Source: Luteimonas mephitis DSM 12574
GTDB taxonomy: Bacteria > Pseudomonadota > Gammaproteobacteria > Xanthomonadales > Xanthomonadaceae
DNA length: 64,000 nt
Assembly: GCF_000422305.1 (NCBI RefSeq)
Contig: NZ_AULN01000013.1
Span: 124,001-188,000, forward strand
Direction of reading: 5' to 3'
The notes below the pieces were generated by a model that made no database searches, was not told where the DNA came from, and worked only from the letters and a program-made list of their open reading frames with translations. Numbering within the stretch: position 1 is the stretch's first letter; the number at the start of each line of letters is the position of its first letter. A program made the translations under genes and the position numbers. Positions 44,089 through 55,765 of this stretch are shown here, in pieces.

Positions 44089-44104
44089 GTTGCCGGCCCC
44101 GTGC

Positions 44105-44173
44105 GAGAGCGGCGGAAGCCTCGGCCGCGGTTTGCGATCGGCAACAGGTCGCGGCTTCCGCCGCTTCTGCGGG
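44105..44173. repeat. degenerate REP-type palindrome, GGCGGAAGCCGCG family
   Basis: Arms near 44105-44124 (GAGAGCGGCGGAAGCC) and 44150-44173 (CGCGGCTTCCGCCGCTTCTG) are inverted but diverged. It follows the broken GST gene and ends five bases from the amidohydrolase stop. Confidence 0.6.
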
Positions 44174-45938: not shown

Positions 45939-45959
45939 GCAGCGCCTCCAGAAAGGCCC

Positions 45960-46025
45960 GCAGGAGCGCCCCATGGGCGCGATGGCGTGCACGGGAATGC
46001 ATCGCGCCAATGGGGCGCTCCTGCG
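45960..46025. repeat. REP-type palindrome, GCAGGAGCGCCCCATGGGCG variant
   Basis: Arms 45960-45983 and 46001-46025 are inverted around 17 bases. The core resembles the other REP families but has GCGCCCCATGGGGCGC as centre sequence. It lies between nrdB and the thioesterase gene. Confidence 0.72.
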
Positions 46026-46038
46026 GGCTCGCGGATCA

Positions 46039-47058
46039 TCAGAACGCGTGGTCGAAACCGACCTCGCCCTGCACGCCCACCTGGTACGCGGACACCCGGC
46101 GTTCGAAGAAATTGGCCAGTTCCTGCACGTCCTGCAGTTCCATGAACGGGAACGGGTTGCGCGCGTTGAAGTGCTTGGGCATGCCCAGCTGGGCCATGCG
46201 CTGGTCGGCGCAATACTCCAGGTACTGGCGCATGTCGCGGATCGACAGCCCGGCGACGCCGCCGCTCAGGGTGTCCTCGGCGAATCCGACTTCGCAGTCC
46301 ACCGCCTCGGTCATCATCTCCACCACCTGCGCCTTGAAGGCGTCGTCGACCAGGTCGGGCTCCTCCTCGCGCGCGGTGCGGATCACCTCGAACGCGAACG
46401 CCATGTGGCAACTCTCGTCGCGGAACACCCAGTTGGTGCCGGACGCCAGCCCGTGCAGCAGGCCACGCGAGCGCAGGTAGTAGACGTAGGCGAAGGCACC
46501 GAAGAAGAACAGTCCCTCGATGCAGCCGGCAAAGCACACCAGGTTGAGCAGGAACTGGCGCCGCTGTTCGCGCGTCTCGATGCGTTTGAGGTCCTGCACG
46601 CTGTCGATCCACTTGAAGCAGAACTCGGCCTTGCGCCGGATCGACGGGATGTTCTCGGTGGCGGCGAACGCCCTGGCGCGCTCGTTGGGGTCCGGCAGGT
46701 AGGTGTCGAGCAGGGTCAGGTAGAACTGCACGTGCAGCGCTTCCTCGTACAGCTGCCGCGACAGGTACATCCGCGCCTCGGGCGCGTTGATGTGCTGGTA
46801 GAGGTTGAGCACCAGGTTGTTGGAAACGATCGAGTCGCCGGTGGCGAAGAACGCGATCAGGCGTTCGATCAGATGGCGCTCGGCCGGGCCGAGCCTGGTC
46901 TTCAGGTCGGTGGTGTCGAGCGAGAAGTCGACTTCCTCCACCGTCCAGGTGTTGCGGATGGCGTTGCGGTACATCTCGTAGAACTGCGGGTAGCGCATCG
47001 GGCGCAGGGTGAGTTCGAAGCCGGGGTCGAGCAGGAGCTGGCGGTTGTGGGTGGACAT
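46039..47058 (-). CDS. nrdB: ribonucleoside-diphosphate reductase, class Ia beta subunit
   Basis: 339 residues. Di-iron ligands are visible: Asp in FFATGDSIVSNN, Glu and His in EALHVQFY, Glu in CIEGLFFFG and Glu/His in RDESCHMAF. A Tyr four residues after the first His (HVQFY) matches the E. coli radical Tyr122, supporting a tyrosyl-radical enzyme. It makes the radical used by NrdA to reduce ribonucleotides to deoxyribonucleotides. It is 162 bases downstream of nrdA, a gap filled by an inverted repeat, so co-transcription is likely but the gap is unusual. Confidence 0.95.
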   Translation of the reverse strand: MSTHNRQLLLDPGFELTLRPMRYPQFYEMYRNAIRNTWTVEEVDFSLDTTDLKTRLGPAERHLIERLIAFFATGDSIVSNNLVLNLYQHINAPEARMYLSRQLYEEALHVQFYLTLLDTYLPDPNERARAFAATENIPSIRRKAEFCFKWIDSVQDLKRIETREQRRQFLLNLVCFAGCIEGLFFFGAFAYVYYLRSRGLLHGLASGTNWVFRDESCHMAFAFEVIRTAREEEPDLVDDAFKAQVVEMMTEAVDCEVGFAEDTLSGGVAGLSIRDMRQYLEYCADQRMAQLGMPKHFNARNPFPFMELQDVQELANFFERRVSAYQVGVQGEVGFDHAF

Positions 47059-47079
47059 GGGTGGTTCTCGCTTTTGCTT

Positions 47080-47210
47080 CCTTCTCCCTCCGGGAGAAGG
47101 TGCCCGAAGGGCGGATGAGGGAAAGATGTTTCAGGTTGCAGCGTCGCGCCGGTTCTCGGGGCTCCCGCCCTCATCCGTCGCTGCGCGCCACCTTCTCCCG
47201 GAGGGAGAAG
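47080..47210. repeat. CTTCTCCCTCCGGGAGAAGG inverted repeat between nrdA and nrdB
   Basis: The left part (47080-47121: CTTCTCCC/GGGAGAAGG hairpin, then CGAAGGGCGGATGAGGG) and the right part (47167-47210: CCCTCATCCG... then CCTTCTCCCGGAGGGAGAAGG) are inverted copies of one dispersed element. Each arm is itself a hairpin. Confidence 0.75.
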
Positions 47211-47220
47211 GAAAAGCGCG

Positions 47221-49656
47221 TCACTGGCACGCCTCGCAGCTTTCCGGATTTTCGAGCGAGCAGGCAATCGCCTCGGTCGGCGTGTATTCCGCTTTTGCGG
47301 CAGCACCCTCAGCACTGCCCACCGTCGCCTTCGCGATCCTCGTCGCCGGCCGCGAGCGCAGGTAGTAGGTGGTCTTGATGCCCTGCTTCCACGCATGCAT
47401 GTACATCGACGACATCGCGCCGATGTTCGGGCTCTCCATGAACAGGTTGAGCGACGCCGACTGGTCGATGAACGCGCCGCGGCCGGCGGCCATGTCGATC
47501 AGCGAGCGCATCGGGATCTCCCACGCCGTGCGATAGATCGCGCGCAGCGGTGCGGGCAGCTGCGACAGGCCCTGCACCGAACCTTCCGCGTGCTTGATCG
47601 CGTCGCGCGTTTCCGGCGTCCACAGGCCGAGCTTCTTCAATTCATCGACGAGGTAGCGGTTGACCTGCAGGAAATCCCCGGACAGCGTCTCGCGCTTGAA
47701 CAGGTTGGACACCTGCGGCTCGACGCATTCGTAGGAGCCGGCGATCGAGGCGATGGTCGCGGTCGGCGCGATCGCGATCAGCAGCGAGTTGCGCAGGCCG
47801 TTGGTCTTGATGCGTTCACGCAGGCCATCCCAGCGCTCGCGATCCTGCGGCACTAAGTCCCAGGCGTCGAACTGCAGCTCGCCGCTGGCCGCGCGCGTAT
47901 CGGCGAATGCCGGGTGCCGGCCGCGTTCCTGCGCCAGTTCGCAGGAAGTCTCCAGCGCGAAGTAGTAGATGGTCTCGGCGATCCTGGCCGACAACGCGCG
48001 CGCGGCTTCTCCGTCGAACGGCAGCCGCAGCTTGAAGAACACGTCCTGCAGGCCCATCACGCCGAGCCCGATCGGGCGCCAGCGCAGGTTGCCGCGGCGC
48101 GCGGATTCGATCGGATAGAAGTTCAGGTCGATCACGCGGTCGAGCTGGCGCACAGCGAGGCGAACGGTTTCGGCGAGCTTGTCGAAATCGAACTCGTTGT
48201 CTTCGTCGAAATGGTGCGAGAGGTTGATCGAGCCGAGGTTGCACACCGCGGTCTCGTCGGCGGACGTGACCTCCAGGATCTCGGTGCACAGGTTTGACAG
48301 GTGGATAACGTTGCCGGCCCTGGCGGTCTGGTTGCTGGCGCGGTTGCACTTGTCCTTGAACGTCATCCAGCCGTTGCCGGTCTGCGCCAGCGTGCGCATC
48401 ATCCGCAGGTACAGTTCGCGCGCCTTGATCGTCCTGACCGCCTTGCCCTGCGCCTCGGCCTGTTCGTAGGCGCGCTCGAAGGCGTCGCCGAACAGGTCGG
48501 TCAGCTCCGGCACCTTGCTCGGGTCGAACAGCGACCAGTCGGCATCGCTCTCGACGCGCCGCATGAACAGGTCGGGGATCCAGTTGGCGAGGTTGAGGTT
48601 GTGGGTGCGGCGTGCGTCATCGCCGGTGTTGTCGCGCAGTTCGAGGAATTCCTCGACATCCGCGTGCCACGGCTCCAGGTACACGCAGGCCGCGCCCTTG
48701 CGCTTGCCGCCCTGGTTGACCGCGGCCACCGAGGAATCCAGCGTCTTCAGCCACGGCACGATGCCGTTGGAATGGCCGTTGGTGGACCGGATCAGCGCGC
48801 CGCGCGAGCGCACCCGGGTGTAACTGACGCCGATGCCGCCGCTGAACTTCGACAGCTGGGCGATGTCGCCGTACTTCTGGTAGATCGACTCCAGCGAGTC
48901 CTGGGGTGAATCGAGCAGGAAGCACGACGACAGCTGCTCGTGGGTGGTGCCGGCGTTGAACAGCGTCGGCGAGCTTGGCAGGTAGTCGAGGCTGCCCATG
49001 CGCCGGTACAGCGCCAGCGCCTCGGGCACGTCCTCGCTCAGCGCGCAGGCGATGCGCAGGAAGAACTGCTGCGGTGTCTCGATCACCTTGCGCGTGTGCG
49101 GATGGCGCAGCAGATAGCGGTCGTACAGCGTGCGCAGGCCGAAGTAGTCGAAGCGCAGGTCGAGCGACACGTCGATGGCATCGTTGAGCTTGCGCGCATT
49201 GGCCTGCACGAAGCCGAGCAGGCGCTCGTTGATCAGGCCGACGTCAAACCCGCGCGCAACCGACTGCGAGAACGCGTGGATCTCCTGGCCGGAGACTTCC
49301 TTGGCGATGACGCCGGCGAGCAGGCGCGCGGCGAGACGGCTGTACTCGGGTTCCTCGGCGGTCAGCAGCGCGGCGGTGCGGATCGACAGCTCATCGAGTT
49401 CGCGCGTGCTCGCGCCGTCGTACAGGCCGGAGATGGTGCGCGTGGCCACCCGCATCGGGTCGACCGCGTGCAGCCCCTCCGCGCAGCGCTGCACCGCGCG
49501 CACGATCTTGTTGAGGTCGACCGGCTCGCTGCCGCCATTGCGCTTGCTGACGCGCATCGCGGTGGCGGTGGGGGGCGGGGTCAGCAGGAAGGACGCGTCC
49601 TCCTGTGTCGTATCCGCGGCGACCGTGGTGGCGACGGCGGTGTCGTTCTGGTTCAT
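47221..49656 (-). CDS. nrdA: ribonucleoside-diphosphate reductase, class Ia alpha subunit
   Basis: 811 residues. N-terminal ATP-cone (MRVSKRNGGSEPVDLNKIVR) for dATP feedback; active-site cysteines in SSCFLLD, SNLCTEI (with catalytic Asn and Glu) and AVCNLGSINL; paired tyrosines near TTYYLRSR for the radical path; C-terminal redox pair ESCEACQ. It reduces ribonucleoside diphosphates, the committed step of DNA precursor synthesis. ATG 49656 has a GAGGAG site. Its ~535-base leader holds a cobalamin riboswitch, and the promoter is flanked by NrdR-like boxes, so expression should fall with B12 and with high dNTP levels. Confidence 0.96.
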   Translation of the reverse strand: MNQNDTAVATTVAADTTQEDASFLLTPPPTATAMRVSKRNGGSEPVDLNKIVRAVQRCAEGLHAVDPMRVATRTISGLYDGASTRELDELSIRTAALLTAEEPEYSRLAARLLAGVIAKEVSGQEIHAFSQSVARGFDVGLINERLLGFVQANARKLNDAIDVSLDLRFDYFGLRTLYDRYLLRHPHTRKVIETPQQFFLRIACALSEDVPEALALYRRMGSLDYLPSSPTLFNAGTTHEQLSSCFLLDSPQDSLESIYQKYGDIAQLSKFSGGIGVSYTRVRSRGALIRSTNGHSNGIVPWLKTLDSSVAAVNQGGKRKGAACVYLEPWHADVEEFLELRDNTGDDARRTHNLNLANWIPDLFMRRVESDADWSLFDPSKVPELTDLFGDAFERAYEQAEAQGKAVRTIKARELYLRMMRTLAQTGNGWMTFKDKCNRASNQTARAGNVIHLSNLCTEILEVTSADETAVCNLGSINLSHHFDEDNEFDFDKLAETVRLAVRQLDRVIDLNFYPIESARRGNLRWRPIGLGVMGLQDVFFKLRLPFDGEAARALSARIAETIYYFALETSCELAQERGRHPAFADTRAASGELQFDAWDLVPQDRERWDGLRERIKTNGLRNSLLIAIAPTATIASIAGSYECVEPQVSNLFKRETLSGDFLQVNRYLVDELKKLGLWTPETRDAIKHAEGSVQGLSQLPAPLRAIYRTAWEIPMRSLIDMAAGRGAFIDQSASLNLFMESPNIGAMSSMYMHAWKQGIKTTYYLRSRPATRIAKATVGSAEGAAAKAEYTPTEAIACSLENPESCEACQ

Positions 49657-49791: not shown

Positions 49792-49930
49792 GCGTGCGGC
49801 GTCTTCGCAGGGTGTGGGCGCGGTGTCGCAGCGACCGCGACCGTCGCGGAGGCGAGGCCGGGCTTGCGTCACCAGCCATCTCCCCCCGGAGATTCCGCGG
49901 CCGGCACCGCGCGGCGTGCATGCGCGCGGC

Positions 49931-50190
49931 TGTCGGCAGGTCTTCGGACTCGTGGACGCGGAATGGCGTCTGTAGGAGCGGCGGAAGCCGCGGGCTTTTC
50001 GATCCGGAAAAGCGTTCGCGGCTTCCGCCGCTCCTACAACAATCCATTCCATCTACTGGCCGTCGCTTCCCGGGATCGAATCCATCCCAGTGCTGTGTGA
50101 CGGCGGTCGTTTCCACATACCGCTGCGGGGCAGTGCCGGATTCCAACCGGCTTCCCTTTTCATCCGATGGTGCGAGCCAACGGAACCGAC
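49931..50190 (-). promoter_or_regulatory. cobalamin (B12) riboswitch upstream of nrdA
   Basis: On the minus strand the conserved core appears in order: GATGAAAAGGGAAGCCGG, AATCCGGCACTGCCCCGCAG, a CACTGGGATGG...GATCCCGGGAAG arm, CGACGGCCAGTAGA, and GAGTCCGAAGACCTGCCGAC (the B12-box end). Closing GTCGG (near 50190) pairs with CCGAC (near 49932). B12 binding should lower nrdA expression, as known for other class Ia/Ib nrd operons in bacteria that also own a B12-dependent class II reductase. A REP palindrome (49972-50036) is inserted in a peripheral stem; without it the element would be about 195 bases, a normal size. Confidence 0.9.
49972..50036. repeat. REP-type palindrome (GGCGGAAGCCGCG family) inside the riboswitch
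   Basis: Arms 49972-49992 (GTAGGAGCGGCGGAAGCCG...) and 50016-50036 (complement) enclose about 23 bases. The element sits between GGAATGG (50044-50050, minus sense) and CCATTCC (49961-49967), which pair, so it caps a variable stem of the riboswitch. Confidence 0.85.
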
Positions 50191-50192
50191 GG

Positions 50193-50240
50193 GCACAACA
50201 TAGTGTGGTCAGCGTGATCGGTCAACGCAAAATGATGTGG
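50193..50240 (-). promoter_or_regulatory. nrdA promoter with two NrdR-like boxes
   Basis: On the minus strand TTGACC (50220-50225) and TATGTT (50197-50202) are spaced by 17 bases, placing the transcript start near 50190, right at the riboswitch 5' end. Two sites resemble the 16-base NrdR box (acaCwAtATaTwGtgt): GCACAACATAGTGTGG (50193-50208; 12 of 16) over the -10 and ACGCAAAATGATGTGG (50225-50240; 11 of 16) just upstream of the -35. They start 32 bases apart, the known three-turn spacing of NrdR box pairs. Confidence 0.65.
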
Positions 50241-51880: not shown

Positions 51881-51943
51881 GTGGGAGCGGCGGAAGCCGC
51901 GATAGCTCCACCGGAAAGGCATCGCGGCTCCCGCCGCTCCTAC
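51881..51943. repeat. REP-type palindrome, GGCGGAAGCCGCG family
   Basis: Arms 51881-51901 (GTGGGAGCGGCGGAAGCCGC) and 51923-51943 (complement ending GCTCCTAC) with a 21-base centre, between the convergent RNB ribonuclease and zapE genes. Confidence 0.78.
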
Positions 51944-55700: not shown

Positions 55701-55765
55701 TGCAGGAGCGGCGGGAGCCGCGATGCTTCACCGGTAAAGCCATCGCGGCTTCCGCCGCTCCTGCA
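55701..55765. repeat. REP-type palindrome, GGCGGAAGCCGCG family
   Basis: Arms 55701-55722 (TGCAGGAGCGGCGGGAGCCG) and 55743-55765 (complement ending CTCCTGCA) around 20 bases, between ubiA and the carrier gene. Confidence 0.77.

Follow-up and report, generated by a model that had tools for sequence, protein, structure and literature searches.

The cobalamin riboswitch in the nrdA leader of Luteimonas mephitis DSM 12574 carries a GTAG-class REP doublet in the loop of its stem P12. We consider it highly probable that the doublet inserted into this loop, that only a peripheral arm was lengthened while the core was kept, and that the switch still works. Four things can be read from the sequence and its comparison with relatives: that the doublet was inserted, that the core is intact, that the arm is predicted to be independent of the rest, and that long palindromic P12 arms exist elsewhere. 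The features discussed below are located in the window, the stretch of 64,000 nucleotides analysed here (contig NZ_AULN01000013.1, positions 124,001 to 188,000), and are collected in Table 1.

The REP doublet and the arm that holds it

The riboswitch, of the adenosylcobalamin (AdoCbl) type, is encoded on the minus strand of the window. RF00174 matched it over the full length of the model (1-189) with 102.3 bits (E 1.8e-24; curated cut-off 31.5), and R2, a covariance model of the nrdA type, gave 175.7 bits. Besides the one in the nrdA leader, a single cobalamin riboswitch is present in the genome (code G000). The NrdA encoded downstream is 81-87% identical to that of 80 named loci compared. B12 riboswitches of this kind allow B12 to turn the class I reductase down when a class II enzyme can replace it. 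As the class II, B12-dependent reductase NrdJ is also encoded in this genome (584.6 bits, cut-off 399.95), the same response to B12 would be expected here. Two further palindromic structures were observed in the same operon. A perfect 25-nt inverted repeat with 86 nt between its arms occupies the gap between nrdA and nrdB (47078-47213), and a second kind of palindrome, with GCAGGAGCGCCCCATGGGCGCGATG, lies directly behind nrdB (45956-46028). A palindrome similar to the latter flanks another RAYT gene (L204).

Table 1. Features of the nrdA leader, the downstream genes and the REP doublets, in window coordinates
Feature	Position	Strand	Evidence or remark
Cobalamin (adenosylcobalamin-type) riboswitch aptamer, nrdA leader	49918..50205	-	RF00174
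P12, 5' strand (RNA GGAAUGG)	50044..50050	-	pair probability 0.99-1.0 with and without the insert
P12, 3' strand (RNA CCAUUCC)	49960..49966	-	same 7-bp stem
6 nt separating P12 from the REP (RNA AUUGUU)	50038..50043	-	2 nt paired in the predicted fold
5 nt on the opposite side of the REP (RNA AGACG)	49967..49971	-	sequence
GTAG-class REP doublet, two inverted REPs, 66 nt, in the P12 loop	49972..50037	.	GTAG...CTAC ends
CCCC of L5, candidate kissing-loop side	50127..50130	-	sequence
Hairpin with GGGG loop, candidate P13/L13, 3' of the aptamer	49878..49893	-	loose hairpin search
nrdA, class I ribonucleotide reductase large subunit	47221..49656	-	TIGR02506, 731.1 bits, cut-off 341.05; ATG at 49656, stop at 47221, downstream of the riboswitch
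nrdB, ribonucleotide reductase small subunit	46039..47058	-	best NCBIfam NF005550, 265.2 bits, E 8.7e-79, below cut-off 309
Further REP doublet copy	51881..51943	.	palindrome comparison
Further REP doublet copy	55702..55764	.	palindrome comparison
Degenerate REP doublet copy, ends approximate	44103..44170	.	no doublet-pattern match

Each REP unit consists of a GTAG tag followed by a short palindrome, GTAGGAGCGGCGGAAGCCGC, and is joined to its inverted partner; the terminal arms of the doublet are 22 nt long and 100% complementary. The palindrome, the pairing 7-mers and the riboswitch named in the original prediction were all present, with ends that differed by 1-2 bases, and the copies it had placed near 44105, 51881 and 55701 are real, the one at 44105 being degenerate. 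A whole-genome search with a 151-nt query gave 75 matches, a number that scores palindromic copies once per strand and takes in the site of the query with its flanks; copies are thus many and dispersed. We inspected 24 of them, 20 fetched from the genome together with the three other window copies and the riboswitch copy. A doublet pattern allowing GTAG, GCAG or GTGG ends fitted 17 copies, 7 deviated, and exact GTAG...CTAC ends were found in 10 of the 24. As to an extragenic location, the stop-free stretches around 20 copies are no decisive guide in GC-rich DNA. As for a possible mobilizing enzyme, PF01797 (Y1_Tnp) had five matches in the genome, and one of these genes (G000:C3:417891-418211) has GTAG REPs on both sides, with the loop TTCA in place of the GGAA loop of the inserted REP. 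Judged by sequence, this gene and its bordering repeats fit a RAYT with its REPs. The GTAG end, the short palindromic unit, the large number of copies and a RAYT gene bordered by GTAG repeats are features shared with the GTAG REP superfamily and its RAYTs (PMC3733652, PMC2817692); riboswitches are nowhere mentioned by that word in the main text of the former.

Concerning the arm, a consensus structure was derived from an alignment of 36 short-arm relatives (A4). In this consensus the arm forms a hairpin of 6 bp, flanked by the 3' strands of P8 and P7, and both sides had changed in 1, 10, 8, 14, 5 and 12 of the 36 rows for the respective pairs. By its position, rather than through an alignment to the E. 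coli RNA, we assigned this hairpin as P12 of the E. coli btuB numbering, a facultative peripheral stem. According to passages of PMC5359240, P12 of E. coli btuB comprises nt 123-135, adjoins J8/12 and is missing from the two crystallised AdoCbl riboswitches, and AdoCbl affinity was reported to be uncorrelated with the presence of P12. The window riboswitch resembles the E. coli RNA in having P12 beside J8/12, and differs from it in that the E. coli stem spans only the nucleotides mentioned.

The 7-mers GGAATGG (49960-49966) and CCATTCC (50044-50050) do pair as a stem, as had been proposed. Taking into account that the flanks of other REP copies also pair to some extent, 7-bp pairing alone is no proof that the stem is the riboswitch's own; we ascribe it to the riboswitch because relatives have a short P12. 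In a control that used 21 of 23 copies, the best flank pairing averaged 3.86 bp (3.70 bp without the riboswitch copy) against 3.59 bp for mismatched flanks. Pairing of at least 5 bp was reached by 6 of the 21 copies, compared with 15% of mismatched pairs, and one other copy (L277) likewise reached 7 bp. There was no clear excess over mismatched flanks among these 21 copies that would indicate a preference of REPs for inverted-repeat targets. For the insertion as such, the control counts as weak support.

When nrdA leaders of relatives were aligned, a short arm was found at the same place, as the original prediction had anticipated for an insertion. The P12 segment measures 24-42 nt in 55 short-arm rows and 103 nt in the window. 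We compared the inserted REP with 20 copies from its own genome, where the best score was 51.5 and the next were 51.0, 50.0 and 49.5, and with the P12 REPs of three other genomes, which gave 30.0, 35.5 and 30.0. As the own-genome copies score higher, the inserted REP came from the family of its own genome. A common origin of the P12 REPs in G000, G091, G077 and G160 had also been considered, G000 and G091 sharing a few flanking bases; it was rejected for G000, whose REP is far nearer to its own copies.

The riboswitch core and its predicted folding

We aligned 77 riboswitches, 55 with a short and 22 with a long arm, two genomes being represented twice among the short rows. The conserved core was defined as the 96 columns outside P12 whose conservation among the 55 short-arm rows reaches 95% or more. 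Core identity was 99.24% in the long-arm rows and 99.41% in the short-arm rows, and the window riboswitch agreed in 96 of 96 columns, with every consensus helix paired except for one pair of P2. The fraction of paired cells was 0.909 in long-arm against 0.973 in short-arm rows for P7, and 0.881 against 0.918 for P2. At the aligned base of P12 itself it was 0.689 against 0.939, because some long arms retain little of the old stem. A kissing loop between L5 and L13 and an extension of P6 with P7, P8, P10 and P11 are described in passages of PMC11260477. A GGGG-loop hairpin, the candidate L13, was found at 65 of 76 loci (10 genomes counted twice; positions not all alike); it was present in 17 of the 22 long-arm rows and missed in 5 by a loose search that also accepted other positions. 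The conservation of the core could alternatively reflect a recent insertion.

The natural RNA was then compared with a short-loop control in free folding. Removing the insert left the pair probabilities of P1, P2, P4, P8 and P10/11 the same to two decimals, and those of P7 agreed within 0.01. The free fold misses the ligand-bound P1, P2 and P7 (probability about 0.1 in both versions), and the folding therefore shows insulation of the arm, not function. The original prediction had added that folding speed or tertiary contacts may be altered. Within this equilibrium prediction the rest of the RNA is unchanged by the insert; together with the complete agreement of the core columns, this upholds the view that the palindrome merely extends a peripheral arm and leaves the core as it was. 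As the element itself is a hairpin, with a predicted helix of 23 bp, and P12 stays paired, the insert only extends this arm. In the mechanism that we propose, a REP-associated transposase (RAYT) would have moved the GTAG-class doublet into the loop of the facultative stem P12 of the AdoCbl-type riboswitch that precedes nrdA. The insert has spared the core, the junction of P7 with P8, and L5 and L13 as candidate partners; ligand binding and regulation would persist, and the effect would be neutral or mild.

Long P12 arms among relatives

As strict text patterns missed most riboswitches, relatives were surveyed with covariance models; R2 took the place of an earlier model, R1, whose consensus structure was poor. 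RF00174 matched all 52 genomes of the window's genus, with 112 matches in total; 111 of these were fetched and one of 33.6 bits was left out. With R2, 310 of 395 family genomes had a match at E up to 1e-22 and the best 150 rows were listed; repeating the search on 55 of those genomes with intermediate scores added 56 rows, to give 206 listed matches. All 24 listed matches of at least 270 nt (12 per survey) were aligned, and 22 of them proved to have a long P12, palindrome-filled and 81-135 nt in length. Among the five rows of 240-269 nt, P12 measured 30, 42 and 38 nt in three and was short by eye in the other two (G008 and G021). The two remaining rows of at least 270 nt are Luteimonas nrdA riboswitches in which L11 is long and P12 is not, with a loop of 69 or 44 nt (L040/L182 and L059/L188).

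An nrdA orthologue lies downstream in all 22 long-arm cases; leaving aside that of the window, the fetched stretches gave identities of 77.6-90.5%. The check for nrdA also covered the named loci. That all strong matches of the genus are nrdA leaders was ruled out by low NrdA identities. Among the 111 fetched genus loci, 11 had a match of at least 84% to the window NrdA, and the reductase downstream at 13 (Luteimonas L013, L014, L017, L020, L024 and others) was only 33-38% identical to it. Of 19 loci checked, 8 gave only 25-30% (L151, with 86%, among them). As not every strong match precedes nrdA, our counts are given as matches.

The palindromes filling the 22 long arms are of more than one kind. 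A GTAG REP was found in four: the window's genome, G160, G077 and G091. Heptad palindromes (like GAACGAG, GAGTGAG or a CTAG variant), which we call the CGAG type, fill 13 (G106, G046, G190, G327, G250, G335, G154, G339, G295, G360, G259, G137 and G291). The palindromes of the other five (G172, G321, G130, G229 and G314), all of genus g14, were grouped loosely with the CGAG type. A query made from the G190 arm had matches in 15 of 18 genomes, from 101 in G190 down to 3 in G360 and 1 in G259, and none in three controls without such an arm (G000, G010 and G025). The REP of G091 as a query found 69, 72 and 74 places in G000, G160 and G077, and in G091 only its own place (G091:C1:93671-93789; 2 matches, both strands), so the REP is an orphan there. 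The original prediction had presented the window element as an example of a mobile palindrome tolerated in a folded regulatory RNA. This stands as far as the insertion and the intact core are concerned, and it is not the case that all relatives have a long arm of unrelated sequence. Yet in 18 of the 206 listed matches the arm is long and made of other palindromes; P12 is therefore a recurrently occupied site and the window no one-off.

Mobile palindromes in structured RNAs are already known. Rickettsia palindromic elements, known from genes for tmRNA and RNase P RNA (Ogata 2002, via passages of PMC2229807), are likewise dispersed palindromes inside conserved structured RNAs and may be neutral. 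The present case differs in its host, a riboswitch of an mRNA leader, in its element, a GTAG-class REP, and in that one arm harbours palindromes of several kinds when genomes are compared. In Streptococcus pneumoniae, a BOX element joins two T-box riboswitches in one leader, and these riboswitches still work in the authors' view (passages of PMC3049150). There too a mobile repeat and riboswitches share a leader, but BOX sits between two complete riboswitches and not within one helix. No report of a REP inside a riboswitch was found in titles, abstract openings and the 'riboswitch' passages of PMC2267715, PMC1590033 and PMC8040213, a scope that mostly did not extend to subscription literature. 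Within it, two things appear to be new: a REP in the helix of a riboswitch, and the recurrent occupation of a single arm by palindromes of different kinds.

The history of the long arms was examined on a quick NrdA tree of 61 rows (60 different), 19 long (15 of the CGAG type and 4 REP) and 42 short, two rows with L11 inserts being scored as short. The long/short state requires at least 13 changes, whether gains or losses, and well-supported branches force 9 of these. As few changes sufficed in 19 of 500 label shuffles, and the label is hence somewhat clustered. Two long rows, L252 and L253, fall inside a well-supported set of seven with five short rows. We also compared CGAG palindromes of five genomes with 2 to 6 own copies per genome, excluding the copy in a second riboswitch of G190 (L297). 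The best own score beat the best foreign score in only one of the five (G046), and in three the own copies were outscored by the P12 of another genome. An own-genome origin of the CGAG kind is thus not established by these scores, and shared descent or transfer of some insertions is possible.

These results bear on two explanations under which the window would not hold an insertion into a working riboswitch. A long arm that was an ancestral part of the riboswitch would account for long arms in several genera and for the clustering of the label, and the NrdA tree cannot separate gains from losses. We nevertheless regard this as extremely improbable. The palindromes in the arm are of different kinds and, in most host genomes, match repeats dispersed there (G259, with one match, and G091 being exceptions), the window REP is nearest to copies of its own genome, and close relatives differ, L047 being long and L049 short, and L057 long against L066 and L068 short (support 100 in both cases). 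Alternatively, the riboswitch with the insert might be non-functional and decaying. Loss does occur in the family, as 38 of the 80 named nrdA loci had no R2 match at E up to 1e-20 and several leaders, mostly of Stenotrophomonas, keep remnants of 83-144 nt (L084, L101, L102, L087 and others). Decay of the window copy is very unlikely, however, in view of its intact core columns, its paired helices except for one P2 pair, and its candidate L13 hairpin. Insertion into a riboswitch that most likely still works accordingly remains our preferred reading. One of the 38 loci, L071, is titled Bacillus subtilis, and the record is probably mislabelled.

Tolerance or preference at the P12 tip

In genus g15, 36 genomes had listed R2 matches and 8 of these a long P12. 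A CGAG query from G339 (E up to 1e-6) gave at least five matches in six of the 36 (39, 56, 12, 18, 56 and 5, counts that may include the P12 copy itself). All six have a long P12, against 2 of the 30 remaining genomes (G327 with one match and G295 with none); two g15 genomes without a long P12 have 2 and 1 CGAG matches. That an insert co-occurs with its repeat family is trivial, but complete occupancy of P12 is not. If a target of 27 nt, as many as 100 copies in each genome and about 430,000 intergenic bases are taken as rough figures, chance occupancy would be about 0.6% of genomes. This estimate was made after the pattern had been seen, and the sisters G339 and G360 may go back to a single event. 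CGAG occupancy of P12 looks too frequent for mere tolerance, and P12 may be a preferred site.

The occupied arm is not confined to nrdA, as a CGAG palindrome likewise fills P12 of a second cobalamin riboswitch of G190 (L297 132-449, G190:C30; RF00174, 80.5 bits). This palindrome is 89% identical to that in the nrdA P12 of the same genome, the two riboswitches being about 7.4 kb apart. RNase P RNA, which also has a variable arm, was of ordinary length in all but two of the 22 insert genomes and in 8 others tried, and the two long ones contain a single-copy insert and a 63-nt tandem array; tolerance alone thus does not predict occupancy. CGAG copies were in addition found directly behind nrdA in 4 loci (L041, L047, L118 and L253) of 90 scanned, in a scan that recovered the P12 CGAG copy itself in 10 of 15 long-arm loci. 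We tentatively propose, with somewhat less than even confidence, that palindromic mobile repeats in this bacterial family settle preferentially at the tip of P12 in cobalamin riboswitches, foremost in the nrdA one, rather than merely being tolerated there. Repeats of two or more unrelated kinds would have entered this tip repeatedly, and in one genus all CGAG-rich genomes are occupied.

Such occupancy might arise in two ways. P12 could be a preferred target, for example if the hairpin, exposed as single-stranded DNA, attracted single-strand transposition and the arm was then kept as harmless. This is possible, if on balance doubtful. The entry of unrelated palindromes into one arm in 22 of the 206 listed matches, the g15 pattern, the second riboswitch of G190 and the ordinary RNase P RNAs argue for it. 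Against it stand the flanks of the other REP copies, with no clear inverted-repeat excess, the higher scores of P12 palindromes against foreign P12 copies in three of five genomes, the after-the-fact occupancy estimate, and the CGAG copies behind nrdA, which suggest that the operon as a whole may be CGAG-rich. A long P12 might instead be useful, selection retaining the insertions because a hairpin ahead of the B12 box pauses the polymerase and gives time for cotranscriptional ligand binding, or because it makes an RNase III site. P12 is indeed transcribed right before the 3' strand of P7 and the B12 box, it is occupied repeatedly while the core is conserved, and the P12 REP of G091 is the sole copy found in that genome. 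We consider a useful arm unlikely, however, as most listed matches have a short arm and the palindrome halves in g14 differ, by eye, by one-sided changes as expected of decay.

Whichever of these applies, the long arms amount to a natural replicated experiment in which P12 was extended by about 40-110 nt in 22 genomes with the conserved core unchanged. They show where a folded regulatory RNA can take large inserts, and they suggest P12 as a safe extension site for cobalamin riboswitches. Whether REP-like elements choose hairpins or merely survive in them becomes directly countable.

The two long RNase P RNAs were observed as follows. That of the window's genome measures 416 nt (L277 1627-2042, G000:C1:282150-282565), compared with 349-365 nt in 28 of 30 genomes. 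One of its hairpins, which we take to be P12 of the RNase P numbering, holds an insert of about 70 nt by comparison with the Rfam model, and the inserted sequence is single-copy in the genome. The RNase P RNA of G190 is 706 nt long and contains a tandem array of 4.8 copies of the 63-nt unit (L288 465-769).
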